This document shows, piece after piece, positions 2,813 through 52,153 of a stretch of DNA of 64,000 nt. Source of the DNA: Dicyema japonicum (lineage: Eukaryota; Dicyemida; Rhombozoa; Dicyemidae). Each line of letters opens with the position of its first letter. Position 1 is the first letter of the stretch. Location: the NCBI GenBank assembly GCA_011109175.1, contig RDEW01000096.1, positions 6,125 through 70,124 of the forward strand. The letters are read 5' to 3'. Made by a program: the position numbers and the translations under genes. Under the pieces are notes generated by a model, which made no database searches, had not been told where the DNA came from, and was given only the letters and a program-made list of their open reading frames with translations.

Positions 2813-5800
2813 TTAAAACTCAAGAAATTTATTTATAACAATAAAATCGTTCTAAACTAAACTAACTTTATAACAATAAAATCGTGGTGTGTGGTGGTGT
2901 GGTGTAATTGAGAAAAGAAGAAGTAACCAGAAGCGATATGCACAAGATCGACAAAAGAGAAGAGCTTTGTGAATTTTGCAATAAAATTAACAAAAGAAAG
3001 CGGCTGATATGTTGTGTCGTTTGTTCGTCGTTTTTTCACATGTCATGTGTTGGAATGACCAAAAAAGCCCTTACCACCATTACCAACTGGTGTTGCCAGG
3101 CATGCCTCCTTCCTGGGACGAAAGCACCATCGACTCCACCTAATTCACCTGAACGAATACCAATAGATTACCAGAAAACCCTTGAATCAATTGCAAACCT
3201 GGCATCTACACGAAGGATCATGATCAAAATTCCAAAAGCAGCCCGTGTTCCTGCCGCCGACTGTTTACACGATTGTATTGAAAGGGCAATTTCTTCGACT
3301 GACCCAGTTGATTGGACACGATTATTCTACTTTGCACCATACACGCTATGTATGCCCTGTCAGAAGAGGAAAGATCAGGAATCGCTCACGTCTATTGTAA
3401 AGGAAAATATTTGCTTGTTTTCTTCTGGAAATTTGTTCAGTGACTCCCGAGAATATACCTTCAAGCCCTCAAACCACGAGAACCATGCCTCAGAAACACA
3501 AAGATTGAGAAGAGCGATACATCGCAAACTATCTGAAGGTGGAGTCCGGGCCGCCGTGAGGACTCTAGAAGAGCATAACCGTCTAATTGAGCCAACTGAA
3601 CACTCCTACGATGCACTGGTTGAACGACATCCTGGTCCGCCAGTGGACGAGCAGATCCCTACTTGCTCTGGAGAATTACCTAGTCTGATTATTTCTGAGG
3701 GGGACGTGAAAGATGCGATCCTCTCATTCGCCCCGAGCAGCAGTGGCGGACTCGACGGACTCCGTCCAGGACACCTAAAAGACTTAATTGATCAGAATAC
3801 GGGGAACTCTGGTGTTCGGCTATTATCGGCTATAACGAGGTTAATCAACAGAATGCTTTCCGGAAGATTACCAGAAGCAATCCGTCATATTATGTTTTCC
3901 GCCAAGTTAATTGCCTTTGATAAATGTGGAGGAGGAATTCGTCCTATTGCTGTTGGGTTTGTTTTTCGTCGACTGGCTTCTAAACTTGCTAGCAGAGCAA
4001 TCCTTCCGATGCTTGTCAAACAACTGCGACCAACCCAAGTAGGGGTCGGTACTCCTGGTGGATGTGAGGCGGCGGTTCATGCCGTTCGGATGTTTACTGG
4101 AAACAGAACGAACATGCCTTGTGTGGTCCTCAAGATTGACATAAAAAACGCCTTCAATACCATACGGCGCGATGTAATTTTGGAAGATTGTCTTACCCAT
4201 TACCCGTCTATATATAATTATGTTCATTGTTCGTATGGAAAACCGTCCAGTCTTGTACATGGGAAATACTTCATTCCCTCGTCGTGTGGGGTTCAACAAG
4301 GAGACCCACTAGGACCGGCATTGTTCTGCCTCGGTGTCGACCGTGTCATGAGATGCCTTACTACTCCGCTGAACGTGTGGTATTTGGATGATTGCACCCT
4401 GGGAGGTCATCCTAACAATGTATATGACTGTCTACAGAGATTACAAACACAATTGGATACGCTTGGTTTAAAGCTAAACGCAGCCAAATGCGAAATTGTT
4501 AATTATGGATTCTCCCGATATGAATGGAATCGGATCCTATTAATGTTTCGGGGGATTATTCCTAAAATATCGGAAATCGAGCCGGATCATTTGGAAATAC
4601 TTGGATGCCCTCTGGCTGAAACTGGAATTAACGACACTCTGTTGGCTAAAGAACAGCAACTAAGAAAAACTTTTTTACGCCTTGGGATGCTGGATGCACA
4701 TACCTCTCTTTTTCTCATGAAAAACGCTTTATCCACGCAGAAATTAAATTACGTCCTTCGAGGGGCTCCATGTTACCTGAAAATGCAACAACTCGGGGCG
4801 ATTGACTCCCTATTCCGGTCTACGACCGAACGTATTACTAATGTCGAATTCGACGAACAAGGATGGGAACAAGCAACCTTGCCCGTTCGCTTTGGTGGAC
4901 TCGGAATTCTCTCACCATCTGATTTGGCACACCCGGCATATCAATCCTCATTGGACTCCAATCAGAATTTGATCATGATGATTCTCCAGCTCCCATCAGA
5001 GTCGTCAAAGATCGAAGATTTGGTACACCCTAAAGTCAAACAACTCGGGCAGAGAGACCTTTATGAGTCTGTTTGCGAGGATAAATACGAGAGGCTTTTG
5101 AAAATATCTAACCAACACCGACGAGCCTGTCTTTTAACTGCAAGATGCGAGTGGAGCGGGGCTTGGATCAATGCCCTACCATTGGAAACGTGGGAACTCA
5201 CCTAGACGATGAAACGGTCCGCACCGGAGTCTCCATCAGACTTGGATTGAAAGTTTGTCAACCCCATGAGTGCCGATGCGGCCGGAAGGTCGACTGCTAT
5301 GGACATCATGCCCTTTCTTGTCGAAAAAGCGCAGGTCGATTCGCTAGACACAAGGCTATAAATGAAGTGGTGAAGCGCGCCCTCGAGTTGGCGGGATACC
5401 CATCCATTCTAGAGCCAACGGGCTTGAGTAGGGATGATGGGAAGCGACCCGATGGAATTACTGTCTTCCCCTTCTCTCGGGGCAAATGCTTAATTTGGGA
5501 TGCTGCCTGTACTGACAGCTTTTCCCAGTCGAAACTTTTGAGGTCGGCAATGAAAGCGGGAGAGGCCGCCCGTTTATATGAAAACTCAAAAATAAAGAAA
5601 TACAGCAGCCTCCTAAACCGTTTCATATACAGCCAGTGGTCGTCGAGACGAGCGGAGTCTTTGGCCCCAAGACGGTCTCTTTCCTTAGAGCACTTGGGTG
5701 TCTATTGACCAAAGCCTCGAGGGAGCGTCGGGAAACCGAGTGGCTTTTCCAAAGGATATCCCTGGCAGTAGTCAGAGGTAACAGCCACTCGATCATATCC

Positions 5801-5850
5801 GCTGGACTTTAGAACGATTTTATTGTTATAAATAAATTTCTGAGTTTAAC
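2813..5850 (+). mobile_element. RLE-type non-LTR retrotransposon, nearly intact, flanked by inverted repeats
   Basis: This unit holds one coding region with zinc finger, reverse transcriptase and restriction-like endonuclease. It is bounded by a 33-nt perfect inverted repeat (2824-2856 and 5808-5840), which extends to about 38 nt with one gap. A 19-mer, tttataacaataaaatcgt, occurs twice directly at the 5' side (2832-2850 and 2867-2885) and once inverted at the 3' side (5814-5832). The stop codon of the ORF falls inside the 3' repeat arm, so there is almost no conventional 3' UTR. Inverted ends are not normal for LINEs. Confidence 0.8.
2938..5812 (+). CDS. RLE-type LINE polyprotein: zinc finger, reverse transcriptase, endonuclease (two frameshifts)
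   Basis: The protein would copy element RNA into a nicked target. The first ATG after an in-frame stop is 2938. Residues about 11-54 form a Cys/His-rich PHD-like finger (CEFC, CVVC, FHMSC, CCQAC). The reverse transcriptase follows, with SSSGGLDGLRPGHL (about 3740-3775), GIRPIAVGFVFRRL, GVQQGDPLGPALFCL (about 4289-4330) and the catalytic WYLDD at about 4378. After it come CRCG...GHHALSC and KRPDGITVFPF...IWDAACTD, which is the PD-(D/E)XK-like nuclease. The frame breaks by one base near 5195 (GGG run), so the first frame ends at 5205 and the next runs to 5708. A second one-base break near 5695 leads into a tail ending at 5812. The full product would be about 958 residues. Clade is uncertain within the RLE group (R2/NeSL/Utopia-like). 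Confidence 0.85.
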
Positions 5851-19524: not shown

Positions 19525-20161
19525 CTAAATATCAAATCTTGTGGACAAAATATAATCAATAATACAATCTGTCGGTTCAGTGGGAATATCCTCAAAAATT
19601 TGTTCATTAAAGGCTAAAGAAAAAGTCCTCGGCCTAATTACGCCTTTCCATGAATTCAAATACCTATCATAATATCCTCGACCTCTCCCCATTCGCTTAC
19701 CGCACATAGTAAAGGCAACTCCGGGTACTACAAGGACATCCAAACCTTCTAGTATAAAGCTCACTCAAACCGGAGTCTTCAGCCTCGACTTTGTTCTCGA
19801 CTTGTTCATGCTGAAAAAATTTCATTGAACTTTTTCTTAGTGAAGCAAAGTCACTCACTCCATCCAATCTGAGCATCCTCATGGGCCCAATTTCTGGGCA
19901 ATAAGGAATGAAGCAGCTCTTGTTATCTCTGAAGGCTGAAGTGATGATTTTATTGGTTGAGACTTCGCTTGGGATGCTCACGTAGAAACCAATATTCTTG
20001 GAGTCCTTGTATAGTTGGGTTTGTAAGAACTAAATTGGATACAGATTTCGGCTTACTTTCTCTTGGACTATATCTGACTGACGTTGTCGTTCGCCCTTGC
20101 TTAGTTTTGCTATGATGTTTAGAGCTTCACGTCTAAAATCAGTTTTAGATAGAGACTGCAT
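19525..20161 (-). CDS. MTHFS: 5-formyltetrahydrofolate cyclo-ligase (methenyl-THF synthetase), three exons
   Basis: The enzyme converts 5-formyl-THF to 5,10-methenyl-THF with ATP, returning the stored folate to one-carbon metabolism. Exons are 20057-20161, 19771-20029 and 19525-19748. The introns are 27 nt (20030-20056) and 22 nt (19749-19770), both GT-AG. Splicing gives exactly 195 codons plus stop, close to the usual length near 200. The start MQSLSKTDFRREAL fits the family (basic helix at the N-terminus). The signature near residues 129-152 is complete: VPGVAFT...GKRMGRGRGYYDRYL. No Shine-like or promoter element can be assigned. A LINE begins 155 bp upstream on the other strand. Confidence is high. 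Confidence 0.93.
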
Positions 20162-25415: not shown

Positions 25416-25681
25416 TCAGGCGTCATTAGTGGGTGGAGGCATCCAGAAGGAGTCATGAGGGATATTGTAGTAAGTGGCATGTTCAGATCCTGTCGCGTTA
25501 TTCAAAAAGGATTCCCTGTCCATTTCTGGGTGTAATTGGGACAAGGCCATGAACTGGTCTTCTGAATCGAAGAACTTTTTCTGTGCACTTTGTCTCTTCT
25601 TGAAGTATTGATTATCCAGAAGATTTCCAGTAGTAATTCTAAAATTATTTTTATTAATTTATACGTCGGGTTACTGGACAT
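25416..25681 (-). CDS. ENSA: Endosulfine/ARPP-19-like protein, two exons
   Basis: Endosulfines are small disordered proteins that inhibit PP2A-B55 after Greatwall phosphorylates the Ser of the FDSGDY core, allowing mitotic entry. Exons are 25665-25681 and 25416-25638 with a 26-nt GT-AG intron (25639-25664). The product is 79 residues and starts MSSNPT. Residues about 17-37 read YFKKRQSAQKKFFDSEDQFM, which lines up with the family core (L.KRL.KG.KYFDSGDY.M). The Ser (residue 31) is kept, but the invariant Gly-Asp-Tyr reads Glu-Asp-Gln. The C-terminus is short and ends PPPTNDA, without the usual PKA-site region. Assignment rests on this one motif, so it is probable rather than certain. Confidence 0.62.
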
Positions 25682-30314: not shown

Positions 30315-32124
30315 TCAACCAGCAGCCTCCAAAAAAATATCATTTATTTTGTTTATAAAAACAATGAGAAATGATTTTGCAGCGATTAAAAAGTTTTTGC
30401 TAAATTGGGATAATAGACAGAGTGAGTAAGTTGTTTGAATATATTCGTCATAGTTGATAAGTACATCCATCAAGAGGTCATCGCCAATAGGGGTATATAA
30501 ATTTTCTATTAAAGCAGCCACACGCTGACTCACATATGACTTAATTTTATTAATCATGTTCTCCGTCAATTCTTCAATGTTTTTACTACACACTTTATTC
30601 TCAATATCCGTAGATATAGTTGTAACACTGTGATGCATAAACAGAATATCCACGCAAATCTACAATAATTATAAACTAACCATTTCTATAGACTTTCTGA
30701 GAACGTCCTCATCACATGTGTTAGACAACTCTAATTTACCTTCAAACAAATCACACATCTTTGTGAGTTGTTCTCTAACAAATTTATGTTGGGACTTTCC
30801 AACTTTATATTTATATTCAGTGGTAGTTGTATTTAAATCTAAAAGTCGACAAATCAGTTCGTTTATATCTTTATTTGCTGATGAAATATCATAGTTCAGT
30901 TCACTTAACAACAAGGGGGTAAGTTCTCCAAATATTTTCTTTGTTAATATATTAGCCTTTAGTCTTTGAATGGTATCTTTGTACTCCTACTGTGAGTTTT
31001 AGATTTACTTTTATTATGTTGGTCTGATTTGGTATTGAGTTGGTAGCTACCATAACAGCTTCACATGCATAGGACAGAGTTGATAGAGTCTGTGAAATAC
31101 ACGAATCTGATGGGGATATTGTAGCTATGAATATGGTTTGTGAGGAACCACCCAAGGATTCCTTTAATACCCTCGTCAGTTTGCTCTCCCTTATATAAGT
31201 AAAAGTCCCAACCTGTAAGGTATATGCACATCCCCCTTTGCTAGTGAATTAATGACTTTTCCCAATACCAGTAAACTTTGATTAATCCTCCCTGCAGTTA
31301 AAACATAAATTACCAATATTCTGTCTTTTCATACTACCAGTCCCAAACAAACCCACACAAAATAGTTTACCAATCGTTTTCTTATTAAAATTATTACCTC
31401 TTCTAATCACAGTCACGTTAAATATAGACTGAGACTAAAAAGTAGTGAATCCTCTACAACCTCATTGGCACGTCTGTTGGATATCCCTCGATGCATTAAA
31501 GAGAGGAAATCGCTCTTACTTTTGACATTAAATTCTCTGAGTCCCTTAGTGATGACTTTTCCCTGAGGTTATGAATAATACTGACTTTGTTATCCTCAAA
31601 AAGAGTGACTTTGTTATTATCGGAGAACAAGTCGAATATTTTTTCATTATAAATCTCCATAAATGACACATTAACAGAAAGTAAGTTCTAATAATACACA
31701 ATGCCAACATATCTGTTGTTACTACTCAGTAATAATGACATTGTTCGTGGAATAATGCCAGACAGTTTGGCATCATCGATTATACCTTCCATTGTAAATG
31801 TCTTTCCTGAACCTGTTTGCCCATATCTCAATTATATAGAATGATTATAACGTGAATATCGTACATGAATGACCAGACAGCATTTTATTTATGGCAGGTT
31901 TACCAATTGATGTAAAAATATCCCTCTGACTAGAATTCTCATCAAAGACTCTAGAAAATTTGTATGTCTTCACTGAGGATTTGTGGGAAATTTTAAGCAT
32001 ATTCGTATGTGTTGATACACATATACCCGTTTCGGTTGAATTAAGAGGTCTGAATAGTTAATTATAATTTACGATACCTTATTCTCACAAATGAATCAAT
32101 ATTCTTTTTATTAATATTAGACAT
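30315..32124 (-). CDS. KIF11: Kinesin-5 (Eg5/BimC-type) mitotic motor, ten exons, degenerate switch regions
   Basis: Kinesin-5 slides antiparallel microtubules to separate spindle poles. Exons are 32078-32124, 31852-32049, 31709-31826, 31586-31687, 31458-31562, 31314-31434, 31213-31291, 31009-31189, 30681-30986 and 30315-30659. The nine introns are 28, 25, 21, 23, 23, 22, 23, 22 and 21 nt, all GT-AG. Splicing gives exactly 533 codons plus stop. Motifs are VRIRPLN, TYGQTGSGKT (P-loop, residues 84-91), VSFMEIYNEKIFDL, INQSLLVLGKVINSLA, IPYRESKLTRVLKESLGGSS, ATISPS and TLSTLSYA. A kinesin-5-like neck, KEYKDTIQRLKA, follows. Switch I is NEVSQSIF instead of NxxSSRSHSIF, and switch II is VGLFGTG instead of VDLAGSE. 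The tail is about 200 residues, half the usual size. A 22-nt GT-AG pair at 30298-30319 could extend the end to 30272. The fifth intron could be 26 nt. Confidence 0.85.
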
Positions 32125-47080: not shown

Positions 47081-47082
47081 AT

Positions 47083-47163
47083 GACGATGTGGCCGAGTGG
47101 TTAAGGCGGCGGACTGCTAATCCGTTGGGGTTTCCCGCGTGGGTTCGAATCCCACCGTCGTCG
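47083..47163 (+). tRNA. tRNA-Ser (anticodon GCT)
   Basis: A complete eukaryotic serine tRNA of 81 nt without CCA or intron. The acceptor gacgatg pairs with cgtcgtc (one G-T wobble). The D arm contains the A box (tggccgagtggttaa), the anticodon loop is ctGCTaa, the long variable arm typical of Ser follows, and the T arm is gtgggttcgaatcccac with a perfect B box (ggttcgaatcc). The discriminator base is G. A short T run about 6 nt after the end (ttttt near 47169) can serve as Pol III terminator. Confidence 0.96.
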
Positions 47164-47299
47164 TTTAAATTTTTAAACTTGCATTTTAATAAATCGTTTA
47201 ATGTTGGGTCTGTATGGATAGCCAGATTAATTTAACTTCTCGAAATTGTCAACATCCAACTGTTTCTATAATTAAATAAATGAGATTAAACAAAATAAA

Positions 47300-50631: not shown

Positions 50632-52153
50632 TCAATATTTTGTAATAATTAAAGCGCTAAAATAATTAACGAGGCCACCCAATGCAATGAGAAGCCAAGG
50701 GACCTTCAATAATAAATACTCCCACCAGTAAATTTCAAATATGCGAGTAAATGTGAGGACAATATAAGGAAGGGAGATATACCCAATAGAAGCCAAAGTC
50801 CAGAGGGTGTGTACAGATTTTGATAATATTGTGGGGATGTTTGAACTTTTAGCAAACTTATACATCTACACGTGCACAAATCATGTACTTTTATGCTGCT
50901 GTGGGTGAATGCGTAGAAATTTATGGCCATGATTAGGTATCCAGGGTACACTCCGTGCCAGACAGCGCAAAACAGGAACAGTTTGATCCGTTTATGCGGA
51001 ATATTTCTACTGTAGATGATATATTTGAGCCATTTCACCGTGCACGTGTTCCAACAGGACACGGCTTTTGTGATTGACGTGGCGAACTGAGTTTGAACCT
51101 TAAAATACCTCGAAACCTCGAATATCGACGTTTGTCGTCAATGACCACGTGTCTGTGTCTCCATCGTAGCCAAACCCAGTCAGATTGAACAGTCCGTCAC
51201 CTAAAATAAGACACGTGGCATACACAACAACCAGAAGAAGTAATGGCGGAGTCGGACAGAAAAAACGCACAAACACGCGCATAAATGAAACCGAAAAAAT
51301 GAAAAAACAGAATTTATCTCCGTTGATTCGGCTATGGAATATAAAATCCGTGAAACCGTAAATCCACCGAGGATCTCAAAGTTCTTAAACAACATGAGCG
51401 AATTGAACAAAACAAATGAAGAAACCACCTTCACAGTCACAGTTTTTAAGCAAAATTTTGGTTTCTTGGAAAAAACGGGAAAGATTACTTGGTTGGATTC
51501 GAAGAAGTCGATGTAATCGTTGAAATGGAAGAAGGGACCCATGAACGTTCCGTGGAAGCTAAAAATATAAGCTAGAAACTGTAGCAAAGACGGAGTCTGC
51601 CTGAAAATAACTCATTTGGAGACCTGAGGACATATTTTTTGTTAGTCTCCTCAACCTCCTCATTGTAGAAGGCATCGTTGTAGGAAATTATCAGAGCCGT
51701 CAGTTTTTGCGTGGAGACCATAATCAGGCTATAATTAGCAACTAATCCCTACTTAGCGACACCGGTTGTGTCCAAGTTGTAGTATTCCCTTAACGTTTTC
51801 CTCAAATGGAGTCCCACCAAGTAGAAGAGACAGACAACAAACGTGCATGAGACTTTCCTGCTGTGGGGGATGTACAGGATGACCAGGTATACCAGGAGCG
51901 AGTGAGCTAGCAAGTGGAATCCTTCTCTATGAGTTCTAACGTAAGAAACAACAGGCCAAATTGGTTGATAGCGAGAATTAATCCGGCAGATATACTGAAA
52001 ATATAACGTAGGGTTAAGTTCTTGACCAAATCAAAGCAGATTATTCTATATATTACTGTTACTAGCACAAATCTGGAATAGAACTCGATTCCGTTAATCT
52101 GTGTATTAAATTTGTAAAACTTGTGTTATTAATGTTAAAAGTTTACAATTCAT
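50632..52153 (-). CDS. MBOAT2: MBOAT-family lysophospholipid acyltransferase (MBOAT1/2-like), eight exons
   Basis: The enzyme would transfer fatty acyl-CoA to lysophospholipids in the ER membrane (Lands cycle). Exons are 52121-52153, 51953-52098, 51753-51926, 51624-51728, 51224-51600, 51109-51200, 50889-51086 and 50632-50865. The seven introns are 22, 26, 24, 23, 23, 22 and 23 nt, all GT-AG. Splicing gives exactly 452 codons plus stop, near the family size of about 490-520. Family landmarks in order are NLIMVSTQKLTALI, TPSLLQFLAYIFSFHGTFMG (HGTFMGP), FHFNDYIDFFE, RLRHYFFWLLCDGLFNLTGF, WSLTTNVDIRGFEFATSI, the catalytic Asn in CWNTCTVKWL (residue about 322) and His in AVWHGVYPGY (residue about 353). 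Many hydrophobic segments agree with a multi-pass protein. The 33-nt first exon encodes MNCKLLTLITQ. Confidence 0.9.

Follow-up and report, generated by a model that had tools for sequence, protein, structure and literature searches.

The window, that is, the whole stretch of 64,000 nucleotides analysed here (G000:C186:6125-70124), comes from a source genome of 64.67 Mb in 191 contigs, shown below to belong to a dicyemid; dicyemids are tiny animals that parasitise octopuses and related hosts. It carries, all on the reverse strand, a kinesin motor gene at 30315..32124 with 10 exons and 9 introns (PF00225, 249.3 bits, residues 29-300), a gene for 5-formyltetrahydrofolate cyclo-ligase (MTHFS) at 19525..20161 (PF01812, 113.5 bits), an MBOAT acyltransferase gene at 50632..52153 (PF03062, 57.3 bits, residues 141-369) and, at 25416..25681, a gene for 79 residues of unknown family with no Pfam match up to an E-value of 0.01. 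The only RNA gene reported in the window by ARAGORN and Rfam is a tRNA-Ser (GCT) at 47082-47164. A retroelement-like frame at 2938-5812 shows, by eye, a PHD-finger-like cysteine cluster followed by reverse-transcriptase-like sequence, and further reverse-transcriptase-like fragments were seen by eye on both strands between 32230 and 41138.

The kinesin model was built with a gene finder that uses a length prior, except for the first intron (32050..32077, 28 nt), which was placed by hand; it restores the motif VRIRPLN and has a counterpart at the same place in the paralogue L007. The gene finder, the paralogue and a flat alignment (one without a length prior) agree on intron 2 (31827..31851, 25 nt, ahead of the P-loop), intron 3 (31688..31708, 21 nt; in L007 itself the flat alignment picked 18 nt), intron 4 (31563..31585, 23 nt), intron 5 (31435..31460, 26 nt) and intron 7 (31190..31212, 23 nt). 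Intron 6 (31292..31313, 22 nt) is a gene-finder call that is matched by 22 nt in the paralogue. Introns 8 (30987..31008, 22 nt) and 9 (30660..30680, 21 nt) rest on the gene finder and the paralogue; both lie outside the motor domain, and intron 9 sits behind a stop in the paralogue. Over the part that it covers, the flat alignment gave 25, 21, 23, 26, 13, 23 and 33 nt, so that five introns agree with the model and two disagree, namely the 13 nt placed near intron 6 (vs 22) and the 33 nt placed near intron 8.

The spliced kinesin frame has 532 codons plus a stop. Seven of the nine introns shift the frame and the two with a length divisible by three contain in-frame stops, as had been noted in the preliminary description of this DNA. 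Its statement that splicing restores family motifs was also confirmed, both by VRIRPLN at intron 1 and by the Pfam kinesin score, which is 249.3 bits for the spliced protein vs 71.6, 55.6, 31.5 and 24.6 bits for the unspliced pieces. The P-loop GQTGSGKT is kept, and NESQS and GLFGTG stand at the places of SSRSH and DLAGSE of KIF11; L007 has DLVGSD at the place of the latter. All nine introns have a counterpart in L007, where only intron 5 differs in length (25 vs 26 nt). For the 320 motor codons that align, dN/dS is about 0.36 (dN 0.116, dS 0.323), a sign of purifying selection on the spliced motor domain. Beyond the motor domain the two genes differ by frame-breaking indels and L007 has a stop ahead of the ninth intron, and this region therefore lends no support.

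For MTHFS, two introns (20030..20056, 27 nt; 19749..19770, 22 nt) were found by an aligner without a length prior; two more of 24 and 30 nt were proposed by the gene finder only and were excluded from the count. The MBOAT gene is a composite of two gene models, the N-terminal part coming from one of them. Four of its introns occur in both models (51601..51623, 23 nt; 51559..51579, 21 nt; 51087..51108, 22 nt; 50866..50888, 23 nt), and a fifth (51201..51223, 23 nt), which joins YFFWLLC to DGLFNLTGFGY, again a motif restored as previously described, occurs in one model only. Three N-terminal introns of 22, 23 and 24 nt, as well as a version with 12 introns (including 19 and 25 nt) obtained at another parameter setting, were supported by the gene finder only and were not counted. 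A search of an MBOAT piece against the PDB gave a single, irrelevant match. The 79-residue gene has one intron of 26 nt (25639-25664).

Together these four genes yield 9+2+1+5 = 17 GT-AG introns, all of 21-28 nt, with 23 nt the commonest length (5/17), in agreement with the ultra-short introns and the most frequent length originally described. Five genes with 23 introns had been claimed, of which four genes were rebuilt here. Of the exact codon totals given at that time, that of the 79-residue gene holds; the kinesin has 532 codons plus a stop (vs 533), and the totals for MBOAT (446 residues in the composite vs 452) and MTHFS (177 in the model vs 195) were not reproduced.

Intron length was then measured with an own spliced protein-DNA aligner that charges a constant cost per intron, requires GT-AG boundaries and has no preference for length or composition. 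Aligned to Prp8 of Lingula (1911/2267 residues identical), the Prp8 locus of the same genome has 36 introns, of which 35 are 20-26 nt long, and 26 of the 36 contain in-frame stops. The lone outlier of 38 nt is, by eye, a 24-nt intron beside a one-base homopolymer slip, perhaps an assembly error, that mimics the longer intron; at a lower intron cost it splits into 24 nt and an extra piece of 20 nt (37 introns in total). The Capitella reference gave the same lengths and the Intoshia reference the same without the first intron. With the outlier taken as 24 nt, the mean is 23.2 nt (SD 1.2), and AT content is 95% in the intron interior vs 67% in exons. With other boundaries permitted for a small penalty, 5/37, 3/36 and 7/39 Prp8 introns departed from GT-AG with the three references. 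Among all 256 possible boundary pairs, GT-AG ranked first for kinesin plus MTHFS (688 vs 654 for the next pair) and for the N-terminal half of Prp8 (5222 vs 4949), whose 19 introns all fall within 22-26 nt.

A gene finder with flat length (GT-AG had been used in training its codon model) placed 22 of 87 GT-AG introns at 22-24 nt in 38 loci, and 2-5 for each of nine other pairs; a codon-only version produced no gene under strict penalties and mostly noise under loose ones. Across nine genes, including the nine window-kinesin introns obtained with the length prior, 75 of 83 introns fall within 20-28 nt, again with a mode of 23; two of eight kinesin loci (L002 and L008) had been dropped for poor alignment, and with their 13 introns the figure is 81/96. 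The non-redundant set, limited to 20-28 nt, has a mean of 23.4 nt (SD 2.0).

The 75 introns were compared with 325 decoys, i.e., exonic GT-AG pairs of 20-28 nt. They are richer in T (0.48 vs 0.27) and poorer in G (0.07 vs 0.20), and position +3 is A or T in 93% of them (51% in decoys). A five-feature score separates the two classes with a leave-one-gene-out AUC of 0.93 (0.92 minus Prp8), and AT content by itself with 0.92 (0.88 minus Prp8; 0.997 in Prp8 and 0.84 in the window kinesin). The overall profile is a weak GT(A/T) donor, with almost no information past GT in Prp8, and an acceptor that is mostly TAG, AAG or CAG. A polypyrimidine tract is not universal among U2-type introns, and none was found here between branch site and AG, the mean longest pyrimidine run being 2.5 in the ten 3' positions vs 2.9 in the ten 5' positions. 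The retained coding sequence of Prp8 contains ten exonic GT-AG pairs that are AT-rich and 12-19 nt long, and a lower size limit therefore exists. Synonymous shuffling was also used to look for selection against exonic decoys in Prp8; the AT-rich decoy z-scores (13-19 nt, -0.3; 20-26 nt, -1.9; 27-33 nt, -2.4; 34-40 nt, -1.8; 41-47 nt, -0.5; 48-54 nt, -1.0) are weak, not length-specific and drawn from one gene, and were not relied on.

Within the homology-defined set of 75 introns, A occurs at position -7 in 44, a count that none of 1000 shuffles reached at any of ten positions (mean best 33.5). A second set of 115 introns was taken from RRM, homeobox and Pax loci with a gene finder that favoured AT content, +3, -3 and 19-28 nt and had no positional term from -14 to -4; six of these are Pax6 introns of the first set, leaving 109 unshared. 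Here A stands at -7 in 60/115 (shuffle 32.0, sd 4.6), with lesser excesses at -8 (51/115) and -11 (46/115), which a UACUAAC register would predict, yet which make -7 less unique. A scan in the UACUAAC register peaks with A at -7 (z 3.2 in the 75 introns, z 6.8 in the 109 unshared ones); decoys give z -0.3 at -7 and rise above z 2 only at -4 (z 3.1). The frequency of A at -7 is 0.57 in introns of 20-22 nt, 0.53 at 23 nt, 0.57 at 24-25 nt and 0.45 at 26-28 nt. After removal of similar introns it is 26/43 plus 35/74, or 61/117 (shuffle 36.4, sd 4.8), and in the window kinesin it is 6/9.

This signal, A in 47-60% of introns depending on the set, is to be regarded as weak and does not prove branching at that position. 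Strict motifs show no excess: CTRAY is found in 3/75 introns vs 21/325 decoys, and yTnAy 37 times vs 41.2 in shuffles; for Prp8 alone the best-match TACTAAC score is 4.22 vs 3.98 in shuffles (P 0.03). Complementarity of the branch site to U2 is confined to a degenerate register whose A stands at -7. The original remark that such introns leave almost no room for a branch point and a polypyrimidine tract is accordingly borne out for the tract but has to be amended for the branch point, of which a degenerate signature is found. For Dicyema, the branch-point section of PMC2483917 gives no signature in 41 introns, perhaps because strict motifs show no excess. Among the listed matches in the open-licence dicyemid literature, no dicyemid branch site is described, only this absence of a signature.

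The spliced Pax6 of the genome scores 404 bits against its Dicyema acuticephalum counterpart (52% identity, 93% of the query covered) vs 298 bits for the next protein; the genome is accordingly that of a dicyemid, not of D. acuticephalum, and the likeness to dicyemids pointed out in the preliminary description was right. A 5.8S rRNA was located as well, but Pax6 sufficed to place the organism in its phylum. Aligned to the D. acuticephalum protein, Pax6 has seven introns, the published number, six of them 20-25 nt long and one 31 nt. The two introns in the homeodomain are in phases 1 and 0, as given in the Pax6 account of PMC2222250; the paired domain has two vs one in that account, the first lying in a poorly aligned stretch. 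Published figures for the dicyemid set (D. acuticephalum, D. japonicum and Dicyema sp.; PMC2222250, PMC2483917, PMC6543705, PMC6736024), as quoted in the intron passages of these papers, are a mean of 26.2 +/- 1.9 (n=16, PMC2222250), table values of 25, 24.93 and 2.51 (n=41, PMC2483917), taken here as median, mean and SD, a median of 27 (PMC6543705) and a mean of 38.2 (PMC6736024). Ultra-short dicyemid introns are thus a phenomenon already published (2007-2019). The present introns are slightly shorter, at the short end of the published lengths, different genes being compared. They resemble the published ones in being short and uniform with weak 5' splice sites, and differ in the branch-site signature found in the present set.

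Of the major machinery, U2, U6 and Prp8 are present in the genome, and the U1 matches stay below the cut-off. U2 snRNA gave 25 matches (best 155 bits, 16 above 110 bits) and U6 snRNA 10 (best 107.8 bits); none of the 11 U1-like matches exceeds the Rfam gathering score, the best reaching 69.0 vs 69.5 bits and the other ten 45.7-61.1 bits. The relevant letters are GTAGTA (GUAGUA) in U2, ACTTACCTGG in U1 and ACAGAGA in U6; the U1 5' ends seen resemble ACTTACCTGG, though the matches remain under the cut-off. By eye, the genome also has proteins that resemble SR proteins, SF3B4 and PUF60. U2AF was not found by eye in 30 RRM loci and 12 stretches (the family search gave 101 matches), which is not evidence of its absence, and SF1 was not located either.

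The minor spliceosome also seems to be retained, judged by a single U12 snRNA match (G000:C68:163471-163599, 85.4 bits, cut-off 53) and by a protein that scores 165 bits to U11/U12-35K (8r7n_C) vs 80.8 bits to U1-70K. The U12-type consensus combines an RTATCCTT donor with a TTCCTTAAC branch site. The short introns were considered for this class and rejected: none of the 75 and 115 starts with GTATCCTT, and the one with CCTTAAC has a GTTTTT donor. A strict pattern for short U12-type introns, run over the whole genome, matched 8 times in 5 places, with 47 nt as the shortest match; the reversed control gave 11, so that there is no excess, and four of the five places, translated by eye, have no convincing gene context. 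The fifth (L087:361-418, G000:C126), in a gene that we take by eye to be a phospholipase C, is a candidate AT-AC intron of 58 nt with donor ATATCCTT and TTCCTTAAC near its end; it keeps the frame, its 3' end is uncertain, and the sole GT in the 60 nt ahead lies 40 nt upstream. A 50-nt AT-AC reading breaks the frame and was replaced by the 58-nt one. The minor-intron survey PMC10639083 excluded introns <30 nt and does not treat dicyemids in its main text; among the matches listed, the open-licence dicyemid literature has no description of a dicyemid minor spliceosome. The retained genes suggest that the minor spliceosome survived genome reduction.

The segments are very probably real dicyemid introns of the U2 spliceosomal type, shrunk to about 23 nt and provided with a degenerate UACUAAC-like site with A at -7. 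The A excess at -7, the UACUAAC register and the GTAGTA of U2 lead us to infer that A(-7) is the branch point. A major spliceosome that is canonical in other respects (U1 5' end ACUUACCUGG, U2 GUAGUA, U6 ACAGAGA) would recognise the whole intron as one unit (intron definition), and U2 would pair with the branch site at -12 to -6. Attack of A(-7) on G(+1) would turn a 23-nt intron into a lariat with a loop of about 17 nt and a 6-nt tail, and the AG directly behind the branch site would be the acceptor; spacing and the difference in base composition between introns and exons would replace the missing separate signals.

An unlikely alternative to branching at a degenerate site is that the introns have no internal signal and are defined by length and base composition alone, as might be read from the negative strict motif tests, the AUC of AT content by itself and the lack of a branch-point signature in short-intron lineages, including Dicyema (41 introns), in the relevant part of PMC2483917; yet A at -7 and the UACUAAC register recur in two intron sets and are absent from decoys, and AT-rich 12-19-nt GT-AG pairs stay in the Prp8 coding sequence, so that there is a lower size limit. 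Far less credible is an origin of the segments as assembly errors or pseudogene lesions. Against it speak the first rank of GT-AG among 256 boundary pairs, the spliced motor domain with its dN/dS of about 0.36, the introns aligned in the paralogue and the same structure in Prp8 and Pax6; in its favour are the one apparent homopolymer slip at the Prp8 locus and, in the kinesin paralogue, the stop and the indels that break the frame behind the motor domain. Just as improbable is removal from the DNA by programmed elimination, or skipping in translation; the contig section of PMC6543705 does report 24,065 'circular' contigs for Dicyema sp., but GT-AG boundaries and a U2-complementary register are spliceosomal hallmarks, and the genome has snRNAs and Prp8.

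On the reading preferred here, U2-type introns with a degenerate site at -7, what is new in the sequence appears to be that branch-site signature and the retained minor-spliceosome genes. A wider proposal is put forward tentatively, with doubt slightly ahead of belief: the spliceosome of this animal, in which U1, U2 and U6 are canonical, SR-like proteins occur and a U12 arm is retained, may excise 20-26-nt introns by way of a degenerate branch site that is held at -7, immediately next to the 3' splice site, with lariat loops of about 17 nt, the major introns having been compressed to the limit and the minor introns, which need longer signals, not. The problem of how 23 nt can hold all signals becomes a testable prediction, a branch adenosine at -7; if that is right, the reported absence of a dicyemid branch signal would be due to sample size or to the lack of anchoring at the 3' end. 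A contiguous dicyemid genome is a place to study the lower size limit of animal introns.

In Trichomonas the branch site is joined to the 3' splice site at a given spacing, the branch adenosine lying a few nucleotides ahead of AG, as the adenosine at -7 does in the present introns. The motif is conserved there and the introns are few; in the dicyemid the motif is degenerate and the introns are many. In the intron comparison of PMC2483917, Trichomonas introns measure about 25 nt and have a conserved branch site. Paramecium (about 25 nt) and the Bigelowiella nucleomorph (18-21 nt) share the size class and the weak signals, as summarised in the comparative passages of PMC2483917 and PMC2222250, and are lineages unrelated to dicyemids. 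A further parallel is to the 15-16-nt introns of Stentor coeruleus, which, in the account of PMC9505925, are AU-rich with GU-AG boundaries, lack a strong branch consensus and have a fixed adenosine towards the 3' end (nt 10 of 15). The dicyemid, in contrast, is an animal, has introns of 20-26 nt with dozens of them in one gene, and has proteins recognised by eye as SR-like, which that account gives as undetected in Stentor.
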